From assembly GCF_025175675.1 (NCBI RefSeq), contig NZ_JANIOA010000035.1, positions 1-46,508 of the forward strand: DNA of 46,508 bases, given 5' to 3'. Made by a program: the position numbers and the translations under genes. Source of the DNA: Sedimenticola hydrogenitrophicus (GTDB lineage Bacteria; Pseudomonadota; Gammaproteobacteria; Chromatiales; Chromatiaceae). Below the pieces are notes generated by a model that was given only the letters and a program-made list of their open reading frames with translations, searched no databases and had not been told where the DNA came from. Position 1 is the stretch's first letter. Each line of letters opens with the position of its first letter. This document shows, piece after piece, positions 14,208 through 24,800 of this stretch.

Positions 14208-16160
14208 TTATGACTGCAGCTCCGGGCGGTTGGCGAACAGCTCCAGCGCTTCCGGATTGGCCAGCGCCTCCTTGTTCTTCACCGGCCGGTTGTGCACCAC
14301 CTCGCGCACCGCCAGTTCCACGATCTTGCCGCTCTTGGTACGCGGGATATCGCTTACCTGTACCACCCGGGCAGGCACATGGCGGGGTGTGGTGTTGGCG
14401 CGGATCTGCCGCTTTACCTTTTCGATCAGCGCGTCATCCAGATCCAGGCCGTCGCGCAGGCGCACGAACAGCACCACCCGCACATCGCCCTGCCACTCCT
14501 GGCCGATCACCAGGCTCTCCACCACCTCGTCCAGCTGTTCCACCTGGCGATAGATCTCGGCCGTGCCGATACGCACACCGCCGGGGTTGAGCACGGCGTC
14601 GGAGCGGCCGTAGATGATGATGCCGTCCTGGGCGGTCAGCTCCACGTAGTCGCCGTGGCACCAGACGTTGGGGAAGCGGTCGAAGTAGGCGCCGTGGTAC
14701 TTCTCCCCGTCGGGATCGTTCCAGAAACCGATCGGCATGGAGGGGAAGGGGGCGGTACAGACCAGCTCGCCCTTCTCGCCGCGTACCGGCTCGCCGTCGT
14801 CGTTCCACACCTCCACCCGCATGCCCAGGCCGCGGCACTGCAGCTCGCCGCGGTGGACCGGCAGCACCGGGTTGCCGAGGGCGAAGCAGGAGATGATGTC
14901 GGTGCCGCCGGAGATGGAGGAGAGACACAAATCCTGCTTGATATGTTCATAGACGAAATCGAACGCCTCCGGCACTAGCGGCGAGCCGGTGGAGCAGAGG
15001 GTGCGCACGGATGAGAGATCGTGGGTCTCGCGCGGTTTCAGCCCCGCCTTGTTGATGGCGTCGATGAACTTGGCCGAGGTGCCGAACTGGGTCATGCGCT
15101 CCGCGTCGGCGTAGTCGAACAGCACATTGCCGTTCGGGTAGAAGGGGGAGCCGTCATAGAGAAGCAGGGTCGCCTCGGCGGCCAGCCCGGAGACCAGCCA
15201 GTTCCACATCATCCAGCCACAGGTGGTGAAGAAGAAGGTGCGATCCCCCGGCCTTACATCGGTGTGCAGGCGGTGCTCCTTGAGGTGTTGCAGCAGGGTA
15301 CCGCCGGCACCGTGCACGATACACTTGGGCACCCCGGTGGTACCGGAGGAGAACATGATGTAGAGCGGGTGATCGAACGGCAGCTGCCTGAAGCCGATCT
15401 CCTGTGCGTCGTAGTCATCGATGAACTCCCCCAGGGATAGGGCGCCCTCGATCGACTCCAGCGGGAACTGCTCCCGGGTATAGGGGATCACCACCACCTT
15501 TTCGATGCCGGGGATACGCCGGCGGATCTCGGCGATCTTCTCCAGGCTGTCATGGGTCTTGCCGTTGTAGTAGTAGCCGTCGGCGGCGAACAGCAGCTTC
15601 GGCTCGATCTGGCCAAAGCGGTCCACCACGCCGTTGACTCCGAAGTCCGGTGAGCAGGAGGACCAGATGGCGCCTAGACTGCTGGCGGCCAGCATGGCGA
15701 TAATGGTCTCCGGCATGTTGGGCAGGTAGGCGGCCACCCGGTCACCTTCACCGATGCCGGCCGCCTCGAGTGCCTGGGCCACCCGGGAGACGTGATGGTA
15801 GAGTTCCCGGTGGCTGACGCGTCGCGCCACCTTGTCCTCCCCGCGGAACACCAGGGCGTCGCTGTCGTCGCGGCGGCGCAGCAGGTTCTGGGCGAAATTG
15901 AGCCGTGCCTGGGGAAACCAGCGGGCGCCCGGCATCTTGTCGCCGTCTTCCAGTACCACCTCGCCCCTTTGGTCGGCAATGACGCCGCTCTCTTCCCATA
16001 GGGCGCTCCAGAACGCCTCCGGCTGGTCGATTGACCATTGGTAGAGGGCGGGGTAGTCGGCTAGTGCCGTGCCGTGTTTCTGATTCACAAAACGTCGGAA
16101 GCGGGTGAGGTTCGCCTGTTCGATCTGGTCGGCATTGGGTTGCCAGAGCGGTTCTTCCAT
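14208..16160 (-). CDS. Acetoacetyl-CoA synthetase
   Basis: This ATP-dependent acyl-CoA ligase makes acetoacetyl-CoA from acetoacetate in the cytosol. The 650-residue protein has the acetoacetate-CoA ligase layout: an N-terminal [14 protein letters not shown] ACAS_N region, and the AMP-binding P-loop [13 protein letters not shown] at about 265-278. [26 protein letters not shown] (near 525) and C-terminal [14 protein letters not shown] (near 605, catalytic Lys) follow. [13 protein letters not shown] is characteristic of this subfamily. The ATG at 16160 has GGAG six bases upstream and is better than the in-frame ATG at 16172. Acetoacetate is a product of the fumarylacetoacetate hydrolase step encoded upstream, and of leucine breakdown. 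An ACGT-rich operator lies 25-49 bp upstream of the start. Confidence 0.93.
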
Positions 16161-16184
16161 TATTATCTCCACAGGTATAAAGTC

Positions 16185-16209
16185 TTTACGTTAACGTAAA
16201 CGTTATAAA
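16185..16209 (-). promoter_or_regulatory. LiuR-like operator in front of acetoacetyl-CoA synthetase
   Basis: TTTACGTTAACGTAAA (16185-16200) is a perfect 16-bp palindrome. It overlaps a second ACGT-AA-ACGT unit (16194-16203), giving three ACGT half-sites spaced six bases apart. The 3' part is almost the same as 1147-1164 upstream of the nitroreductase. LiuR (MerR family) controls branched-chain amino acid and acetoacetate use in many gammaproteobacteria, and acetoacetyl-CoA synthetase is a known type of target. No liuR gene is in the window. Confidence 0.6.
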
Positions 16210-16285
16210 AGAATAGCACTGATCAGGCGCAAAATGAAAATGCCTTGATCTGTCAGTTGAACGCTATTTGGATTGCTGTTTTTTT

Positions 16286-16318
16286 AGCCGCGAATGAATG
16301 CGAATACACGCAGATAAC
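16286..16318. repeat. Single arm of the agccgcgaatgaa intergenic repeat family
   Basis: The sequence from agccgcgaatgaatgcga to cacgcagataac matches arms at 11058, 17808 and 19836. Only one arm is recognisable here. It abuts a gtaggttggggtgagc palindrome, so at least two repeat families are stacked in this 522-bp gene-free gap. Confidence 0.65.
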
Positions 16319-16332
16319 AACGCGATCCTGCA

Positions 16333-23875: not shown

Positions 23876-23936
23876 CAGTGATACCTTCTGTCGTTCCGGA
23901 TCGTGGAATATTAGTTACCGGCGAAACTGTAAGTCA

Positions 23937-23987
23937 TGACAAATGTCATTTGCGGTAAATATAGTTGCAATAGAAACTAATGGCAAC
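23937..23987. promoter_or_regulatory. Dyad sequences upstream of the MBL/FAD-monooxygenase operon
   Basis: TGACA-AA-TGTCA (23937-23948) and GTTGCAAT-N8-ATGGCAAC (23964-23987, one mismatch between the arms) lie 62-112 bp upstream of the operon start. Palindromes of this size are suitable operators for the MarR regulator encoded immediately upstream. No direct evidence of binding. Confidence 0.45.
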
Positions 23988-23989
23988 AT

Positions 23990-24308
23990 TGAAAAAAGTA
24001 GGTTAATAAGGGGGCGTTCCCAATGTTGAAAAGTATAGTAGGCAGGGGCGGGGTAGGCGCTTCGGCGTGGTGTGTGGAAGGCGATAAACGCAGTTTATTG
24101 CAGCGTCTGCGGAGGGTAATGAGAGATTGCTTCGCCGCATAAACTCCGTGCAAAAGCCGGGAACGGTGCGGGTGTTCCTCGCAATGACGGCGGAAAGTAT
24201 GTCACTGAATCAAGGCTGAACAGGTGGGGCCACGCGACCGCTAAAATGACGCGCCTGTAGGCGCGGCTGTGTCCCGGGATGGACTTATGCCGCTAAAGTT
24301 GTGGAGGC
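23990..24308. other. Gene-free spacer between marR and the operon, with repeat-like sequence
   Basis: No coding frame is convincing. The stretch gagattgcttcgccgca..ctcgcaatgacg (24123-24196) looks like the dispersed gagattgcttcgtcgct type of intergenic repeat. The tgtcccgggatggacttatgcc (from 24268) resembles sequence at 2784-2803. Confidence 0.4.
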
Positions 24309-24800
24309 TCAGCTGGTAATGCAGAGTTCCCGGGCGCGCGCCTCGAGTTTGCTCAGCAGCTGATCGAACTCCTTGATCTCCCGGGCATTGAAGGGGGTGA
24401 GCAACTGGCGTTCGCGCTCCAGGGCCAGGGGAACAATCTGCTGATAGACCTTCATGCCCTTGGCGGCCAGTCTCAGTTGGGACTTGCGTCGATCCTTCTT
24501 GTCGGTCTTGCGCAGCACCCGGCCGGATTTGGTCAGGCTGGAGACGGCGCGGCTCACCTGCACCTTGTCCATGTTGGTGCGTTCACAGATTTCGTTTGCC
24601 GAGAGGGGTTGATAGTTGCCGAGCACGGCGATCACCCGCCACTCCATGATGCTGATGTTAAACCGTTCAGAGTAGATAGCGGCGATGCTGCTGGAAACAA
24701 AGTTGCTCAATACCGACAGGCGGTAAGGGATGAAGGTTTCAAGCTCGACCCTTGGTTCGTCGCCGCTTTCGTTATTGTTGGTTGTATTGTTCTGAGACAA
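24309..24800 (-). CDS. MarR-family transcriptional regulator
   Basis: The 163-residue regulator has a MarR winged helix: FNISIMEWRVIAVLGNYQPLSANEICERTNMDKVQVSRAVSSLTKSGRVLRK is recognition helix and wing, followed by DKKDRRKSQLRLAAKG. The start chosen is TTG at 24800 (LSQNNTTNNN), because GGAG lies seven bases upstream. There is no in-frame ATG before the DNA-binding domain other than far upstream in non-coding sequence. It precedes the aromatic catabolic operon on the same strand across a gap containing palindromes. By analogy with HpaR/HmgR-like MarR proteins it likely represses the operon until an aromatic acid or acyl-CoA ligand binds. The ligand is unknown. Confidence 0.87.
   Translation of the reverse strand: MSQNNTTNNNESGDEPRVELETFIPYRLSVLSNFVSSSIAAIYSERFNISIMEWRVIAVLGNYQPLSANEICERTNMDKVQVSRAVSSLTKSGRVLRKTDKKDRRKSQLRLAAKGMKVYQQIVPLALERERQLLTPFNAREIKEFDQLLSKLEARARELCITS

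Follow-up and report, generated by a model that had tools for sequence, protein, structure and literature searches.

Homogentisate, an intermediate of tyrosine degradation, is classically opened by the cupin-type homogentisate 1,2-dioxygenase HmgA (TIGR01015; PF20510/PF04209). Hydroquinone ring-cleaving dioxygenases are also found in the VOC family, where PcpA, LinE and MhqO are longer, two-domain proteins. A single-protein homogentisate dioxygenase of the VOC family has been deposited as PDB 9U42, known to us by its entry title ('Homogentisate 1,2-Dioxygenase from Acinetobacter'; molecule name 'Glyoxalase'), and a literature search of open-licence papers found no publication on 9U42 or any VOC homogentisate dioxygenase. 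Homogentisate can also be formed from 3-hydroxyphenylacetate by MhaAB, which in Pseudomonas putida U consists of a flavoprotein (566 aa) and a small coupling protein (60 aa); in Burkholderia xenovorans LB400, MhaAB was proposed for a pair adjoining hmgABC that had earlier been annotated as MhpA (passages of PMC3053370 on these genes). Here we analysed a 46,508-nt stretch of Sedimenticola hydrogenitrophicus (contig NZ_JANIOA010000035.1, hereafter the window), from a 4.7-Mb genome in 132 contigs rated 100% complete and 1.25% contaminated. The window carries a block of nine genes, all on the minus strand and running from 24800 to 14208, which very probably encodes the usual route through homogentisate, except that one step falls to a non-orthologous enzyme, a VOC protein serving as the ring-opening homogentisate 1,2-dioxygenase. 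Our analysis shows the gene content, the lack of any match to cupin HmgA of either type, the slot and distribution of the VOC gene, its fold and its similarity to 9U42; the reactions, the metal, co-transcription and the 3-hydroxyphenylacetate branch are inferred. An enzyme of this kind has already been named in one recent structure entry, and the window gene is a new member.

The VOC gene (20193-20729, minus strand) encodes 178 aa, of which residues 3-176 align with 9U42 in phmmer (E 2e-74, 64-66% identity), and comparison of model folds revealed a common fold across the entire protein. Eleven residues are invariant in 67 of 67 VOC sequences: H7, H8, Y11, R12, H51, E66, H85, H116, H130, R131 and E133. 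H8, H85 and E133, which we take to be the usual VOC metal positions (two His, one Glu), map to strand starts and strand 8 of the predicted model and are present in the 9U42 sequence too. In a profile alignment, the tandem HH and the strand-terminal FFE.P of the protein recur in the VOC hydroquinone dioxygenase-like structure 1zsw, presumably MhqO-like, although sequence similarity to it is remote (44.6 bits in all). The L-DOPA dioxygenase structures 6on1 and 6on3, likewise of the VOC fold, were among the fold matches. Compared with classical cupin HmgA, the VOC protein holds the equal pathway step and gene-order place but is unlike it in fold and length. It most likely opens the homogentisate ring in place of HmgA. 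In existing annotation it is inconspicuous: no NCBIfam model scores above cut-off, Pfam offers only the generic Glyoxalase domain, and four plasmid records annotate the gene merely as 'VOC family protein'.

A bolder reading is that the VOC proteins make up another class of homogentisate dioxygenase, one that is widespread, has repeatedly displaced the cupin enzyme and retains at its metal site a fourth invariant residue, the carboxylate E66. This residue lies at the end of strand 4, where glyoxalase I carries a metal ligand. We regard this extension as speculative and rather unlikely; if true, a glyoxalase I-like His-Glu-His-Glu site in a ring-cleaving oxygenase would be mechanistically new, and E66 could act as a displaceable ligand or as the catalytic base, the role of a histidine in extradiol enzymes.

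The absence of HmgA, which the first-pass annotation had claimed, was borne out genome-wide. In the S. hydrogenitrophicus genome no match was obtained with the PF04209 (HgmA_C) profile (5 of 5 candidates scored), with TIGR01015 (1 of 1 scored) or with A3, a profile built from three short-HmgA sequences (5 of 11 first-look candidates scored), and a hidden HmgA was dropped as an explanation. The TIGR01015 and A3 searches were added because PF04209 is weak on a second, short cupin HmgA of about 380 aa, found adjoining the gene of 4-hydroxyphenylpyruvate dioxygenase (HPPD) in loci L153, L154, L168 and L169 (e.g. L168:3825-4961). This short type scores 82 bits on TIGR01015, against a cut-off of 510.75, and just 23-29 bits on PF04209 in genomes G117, G132 and G038; it is probably under-annotated as well. 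PF04209 had no match in nine genomes of the genus, two of them just 65% and 78% complete, and matched in 3 of 55 relatives' genomes. The genome profile searches score the best first-look candidates only (at most nine for VOC, at most five for A3), and single misses are possible.

The VOC gene tracks the absence of HmgA. In an even sampling of the class (370 genomes, each at least 90% complete), HPPD scored above cut-off in 60, which carry long HmgA (34), short HmgA (13; overlooked by PF04209 in 11) or neither (13). A VOC homologue (>280 bits) was present in 8 of the 13 cupin-less and in none of the 47 cupin-bearing HPPD genomes (Fisher p 5e-7, a value that ignores kinship, as species are not independent; the eight VOC genomes fall in six families). 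Before the A3 search the count had been 8 of 24 HPPD-positive, PF04209-negative genomes.

Our neighbourhood counts refer to the best 80 VOC loci among the matches listed, close relatives of at least 66% identity rather than a census. By family clustering, the commonest neighbours of VOC were maleylacetoacetate isomerase (MAAI, 33 loci), HPPD (32), MarR (27), fumarylacetoacetate hydrolase (FAH, 26) and the monooxygenase (13). HPPD is co-directional with VOC in 35 of the 80 loci, 33 of which separate the two genes by no more than 72 bp, and the order HPPD-VOC-FAH-MAAI recurs in 19; an equivalent order, with the short HmgA occupying the VOC position, was found in L153, L154, L168 and L169. Named lineages with VOC loci are Woeseiaceae, Marinobacterium, Neptuniibacter, Shewanella, other marine gammaproteobacteria and some alphaproteobacteria, in addition to Acinetobacter. 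These observations bear on an alternative in which VOC would be a glyoxalase-like accessory, and homogentisate would either leave the cell as pyomelanin or be opened by an enzyme of a different family encoded away from the block. In its favour, the functions of VOC proteins vary widely, the fold matches include structures of glyoxalase I and FosA, and pigmented Acinetobacter strains exist (according to passages of PMC7646211). Nevertheless, we consider this scarcely credible, as the VOC gene occupies the HmgA slot and follows HmgA absence, the block retains the enzymes that handle the ring-cleavage product and what follows from it (MAAI, FAH and acetoacetyl-CoA synthetase), and the title of 9U42 names the dioxygenase.

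Several observations weigh against a VOC homogentisate dioxygenase. A cupin HmgA match (E ≤0.001) occurs in 15 of the 78 genomes behind the best 80 VOC loci (9 of 47 and 6 of 31; L060 was left out, and L061 bears the strain name of L059), and in L084 VOC and HmgA lie within one 18-kb stretch. G068 and G086 possess two HPPDs apiece, of which one adjoins a short HmgA. Since HPPD is also present at their VOC loci (L063, L081), the role of VOC may be partly different in these two genomes. Five of the 13 cupin-less HPPD genomes are without a strong VOC match (G138, G172, G175, G281 and G418), G175 and G281 having a VOC relative of 165-171 bits placed away from HPPD. Conversely, G215, the ninth VOC genome of the class sample, has no HPPD in its genome, and no HPPD was seen in the flanks of 44 of the 80 best VOC loci, many of these flanks being truncated where the contig stops. 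VOC and HPPD are three genes apart in the window itself. Within the genus, the block does not depend on HPPD, because G003 (L036; two contigs, rated 100% complete) lacks hppD while keeping VOC, FAH, MAAI and the MhaAB-like pair, and in Sedimenticola selenatireducens (L045/L049) hppD is broken into two frames with the rest of the block kept. An equivalent Acinetobacter gene was suggested to be without dioxygenase activity in passages of PMC7646211, which name no assay. Finally, the dioxygenase role is proposed here from sequence, gene context and the title of 9U42.

Part of this evidence would suit another explanation, namely that VOC cleaves a related para-hydroquinone, such as gentisate or a substituted homogentisate, and that the window HPPD serves another fate: some VOC genomes also bear a cupin HmgA, two have two HPPDs, and G003 retains VOC in the absence of HPPD. 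We give it next to no credence, since G003 still has an MhaAB-like source of homogentisate, the HPPD-VOC-FAH-MAAI order recurs as described, and 9U42 is titled a homogentisate dioxygenase. With VOC as homogentisate dioxygenase, the loss of hppD in G003 and its split in S. selenatireducens fit a second source of homogentisate. In the G215 neighbourhood (L174), methylamine-dehydrogenase-like subunits and MauE are encoded next to VOC, a monooxygenase relative and an MBL-fold relative; perhaps an aromatic amine feeds 3-hydroxyphenylacetate in this genome. Little of use came from the surroundings of two weaker VOC relatives (L179, L181) and of the VOC gene of G206 (L172); those of L181 include genes for an EthD protein and an aromatic hydroxylase.

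The candidate second source is encoded upstream of VOC. The FAD monooxygenase (21181-22854, minus strand, 557 aa; PF01494; NF006002/PRK08132, 821 bits) is followed after 13 bp by a DUF2783 protein (20946-21167, minus strand, 73 aa; PF10932, 92 bits). This pair resembles MhaAB by description, an FAD monooxygenase of about 560 aa whose gene, within a homogentisate cluster, directly precedes that of a 60-75-aa protein, and the two proteins are by analogy a probable MhaA-like 3-hydroxyphenylacetate 6-hydroxylase yielding homogentisate and a probable MhaB-like coupling protein. The MBL-fold protein (22919-23875, minus strand; PF00753; relative PDB 8d2z, E 8e-129) bears HYHAVR where HxHxDH is expected, the second half of the motif being altered.

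The first-pass annotation had placed this whole set, together with VOC and the MarR regulator, in the stead of HmgA and suggested an alternative ring opening, possibly after an additional hydroxylation. Something in the cluster does most likely open the ring, yet a single VOC gene is the most likely agent rather than a multi-enzyme mechanism, and only VOC stands in place of HmgA, since the monooxygenase, DUF2783, MBL-fold and MarR proteins accompany HmgA elsewhere. In six plasmid loci picked via the monooxygenase (H1, H4, H7, H8, H9 and H14, chosen among the annotated rows of the 15 listed out of 53 plasmid records with a relative of the window monooxygenase), HmgA, the MBL-fold protein, the monooxygenase and DUF2783 were present in all six and MarR in five, and tblastn found no VOC in their stretches of about 13.6 kb. 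The Sinorhizobium fredii order, MarR-HmgA-FAH-MBL-monooxygenase-DUF2783-MAAI-acetoacetate-CoA ligase, equals the window set but with HmgA instead of VOC and without HPPD. Similarly, G039 combines the MBL-fold protein, the monooxygenase, classical HmgA, FAH and MAAI and has no VOC; where DUF2783 would be expected, it has an ORF of 67 aa, a candidate member of that family. In turn, L184 and L185, picked via VOC, contain VOC, the MBL-fold protein and the monooxygenase, and no HmgA was found in their stretches. Because they are found with HmgA as well as with VOC, the monooxygenase, DUF2783 and MBL-fold genes most likely serve to produce homogentisate and associate with either type of ring-opening enzyme. 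The MBL-fold protein is a companion of the MhaAB-like pair, beside which it is kept, with its altered motif, in both hmgA and VOC loci.

These comparisons also bear on the possibility that the monooxygenase, VOC and MBL-fold proteins jointly open the ring by a new route, for example by an extra hydroxylation followed by cleavage or by Baeyer-Villiger oxidation of the quinone with lactone hydrolysis by the MBL-fold protein. The window and every other neighbourhood compared from the genus (5 of 5) contain all three genes, the structure matches of the monooxygenase include a Baeyer-Villiger enzyme, 23lo, and by our own reasoning Baeyer-Villiger oxidation of benzoquinone acetate followed by lactone hydrolysis leads on paper to maleylacetoacetate. 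A joint route is nevertheless very improbable. The monooxygenase, DUF2783 and MBL-fold genes adjoin HmgA without VOC in the six plasmid loci and similarly in G039; by our search thresholds, the flanks of 69 of the 80 best VOC loci are without the monooxygenase and those of 74 without the MBL-fold gene; and 9U42 was deposited as a single-protein enzyme. The Baeyer-Villiger and MBL lactonase route was rejected because both proteins accompany HmgA elsewhere and are missing from most VOC flanks. Nor did we find any indication of an additional hydroxylation. The monooxygenase and small-protein pair matches the description of MhaAB, which makes homogentisate from 3-hydroxyphenylacetate (passages of PMC3053370).

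With VOC as the homogentisate dioxygenase, the genes of the block, which all have intact frames and match their family profiles as the first reading had named them, would form a complete route. HPPD (16683-17762, minus strand; TIGR01263, 403 bits against a cut-off of 277) would convert tyrosine-derived 4-hydroxyphenylpyruvate to homogentisate, and the MhaAB-type pair would probably add homogentisate from 3-hydroxyphenylacetate. VOC would then use O2 to break the C1-C2 bond of the homogentisate ring, with two His and one Glu presumably holding Fe(II) as the metal, and so give maleylacetoacetate. MAAI (18134-18775, minus strand; TIGR01262, 292 bits, above cut-off) would isomerise this product for FAH, a short bacterial-type protein of 338 aa (18772-19788, minus strand; PF01557, PF18288) whose frame overlaps that of MAAI by 4 bp, to split into fumarate and acetoacetate. 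Acetoacetyl-CoA synthetase (acetoacetate-CoA ligase; 14208-16172, minus strand; TIGR01217, 996 bits, and NF002937, both above cut-off) would finally activate acetoacetate.

The gene order is MarR, MBL, FAD monooxygenase, DUF2783, VOC, FAH, MAAI, HPPD and acetoacetyl-CoA synthetase. A single transcript across the nine genes is plausible, because the intergenic gaps amount to only -4 to 510 bp. The MarR-family regulator (24309-24800, minus strand; PF12802/PF01047) has 163 aa and a TTG start, which was set by comparison with L049. Near VOC, 24 of 28 MarR copies are on the opposite strand (27 of the 80 best loci), and a MarR homologue adjoins HPPD in L043, a G045 stretch also bearing HmgA; regulation of the homogentisate operon by the MarR protein is possible. 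A consensus scan alone marked a promoter-like site, TTGCCA-17-TATATT (23958-23986, minus strand), whose second hexamer ends 83 bp before the MBL-fold gene start; five such sites were found in the region, where shuffled sequence gave 2.8 on average (sd 1.7).

The setting of the window gene differs from that of the 9U42 enzyme: a 14.5-kb stretch of Acinetobacter baumannii encodes an IclR regulator and has no match to the MhaAB-like pair, MBL, MarR or acetoacetyl-CoA synthetase, whereas all of these belong to the block of the window VOC gene, which has DUF2783 and FAH as its direct neighbours. In Acinetobacter, published hmgA names may denote different genes, as far as the passages at hand tell. 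The 'hmgA' reference of PMC11945678 has 633 bp and overlaps a 1308-bp hmgB, lengths and an overlap equal to those of maiA and fahA in L182, and may therefore be maiA. PMC9431530 describes a transposon in 'hmgA' with complementation, the ORF meant not being stated in the passages concerned; neither source was used as evidence. In passages of PMC7646211, the pathway of a pigmented A. baumannii was reasoned to be broken. Genomes using the VOC type would look like carriers of a broken homogentisate pathway, and a named family model would fill this gap in Sedimenticola, the other VOC lineages and Acinetobacter, and could alter readings of pigment formation and HPPD-inhibitor effects in VOC lineages. 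If the assignment is true, a textbook step of tyrosine degradation is served by two unrelated enzyme folds.

Finally, the window contains several repeats. An exact 42-nt repeat is present at 16441-16482, just downstream of hppD, and at 16763-16804, inside its 3' part, and the former looks like a remnant copy. A dispersed 34-nt repeat of the CGCGAAT.AACGC type occurs at 11056, 16284, 17806 and 19834, and a 137-nt pair of 82% identity (16284-16420 and 19834-19970) lies inside two of the larger gaps of the operon.

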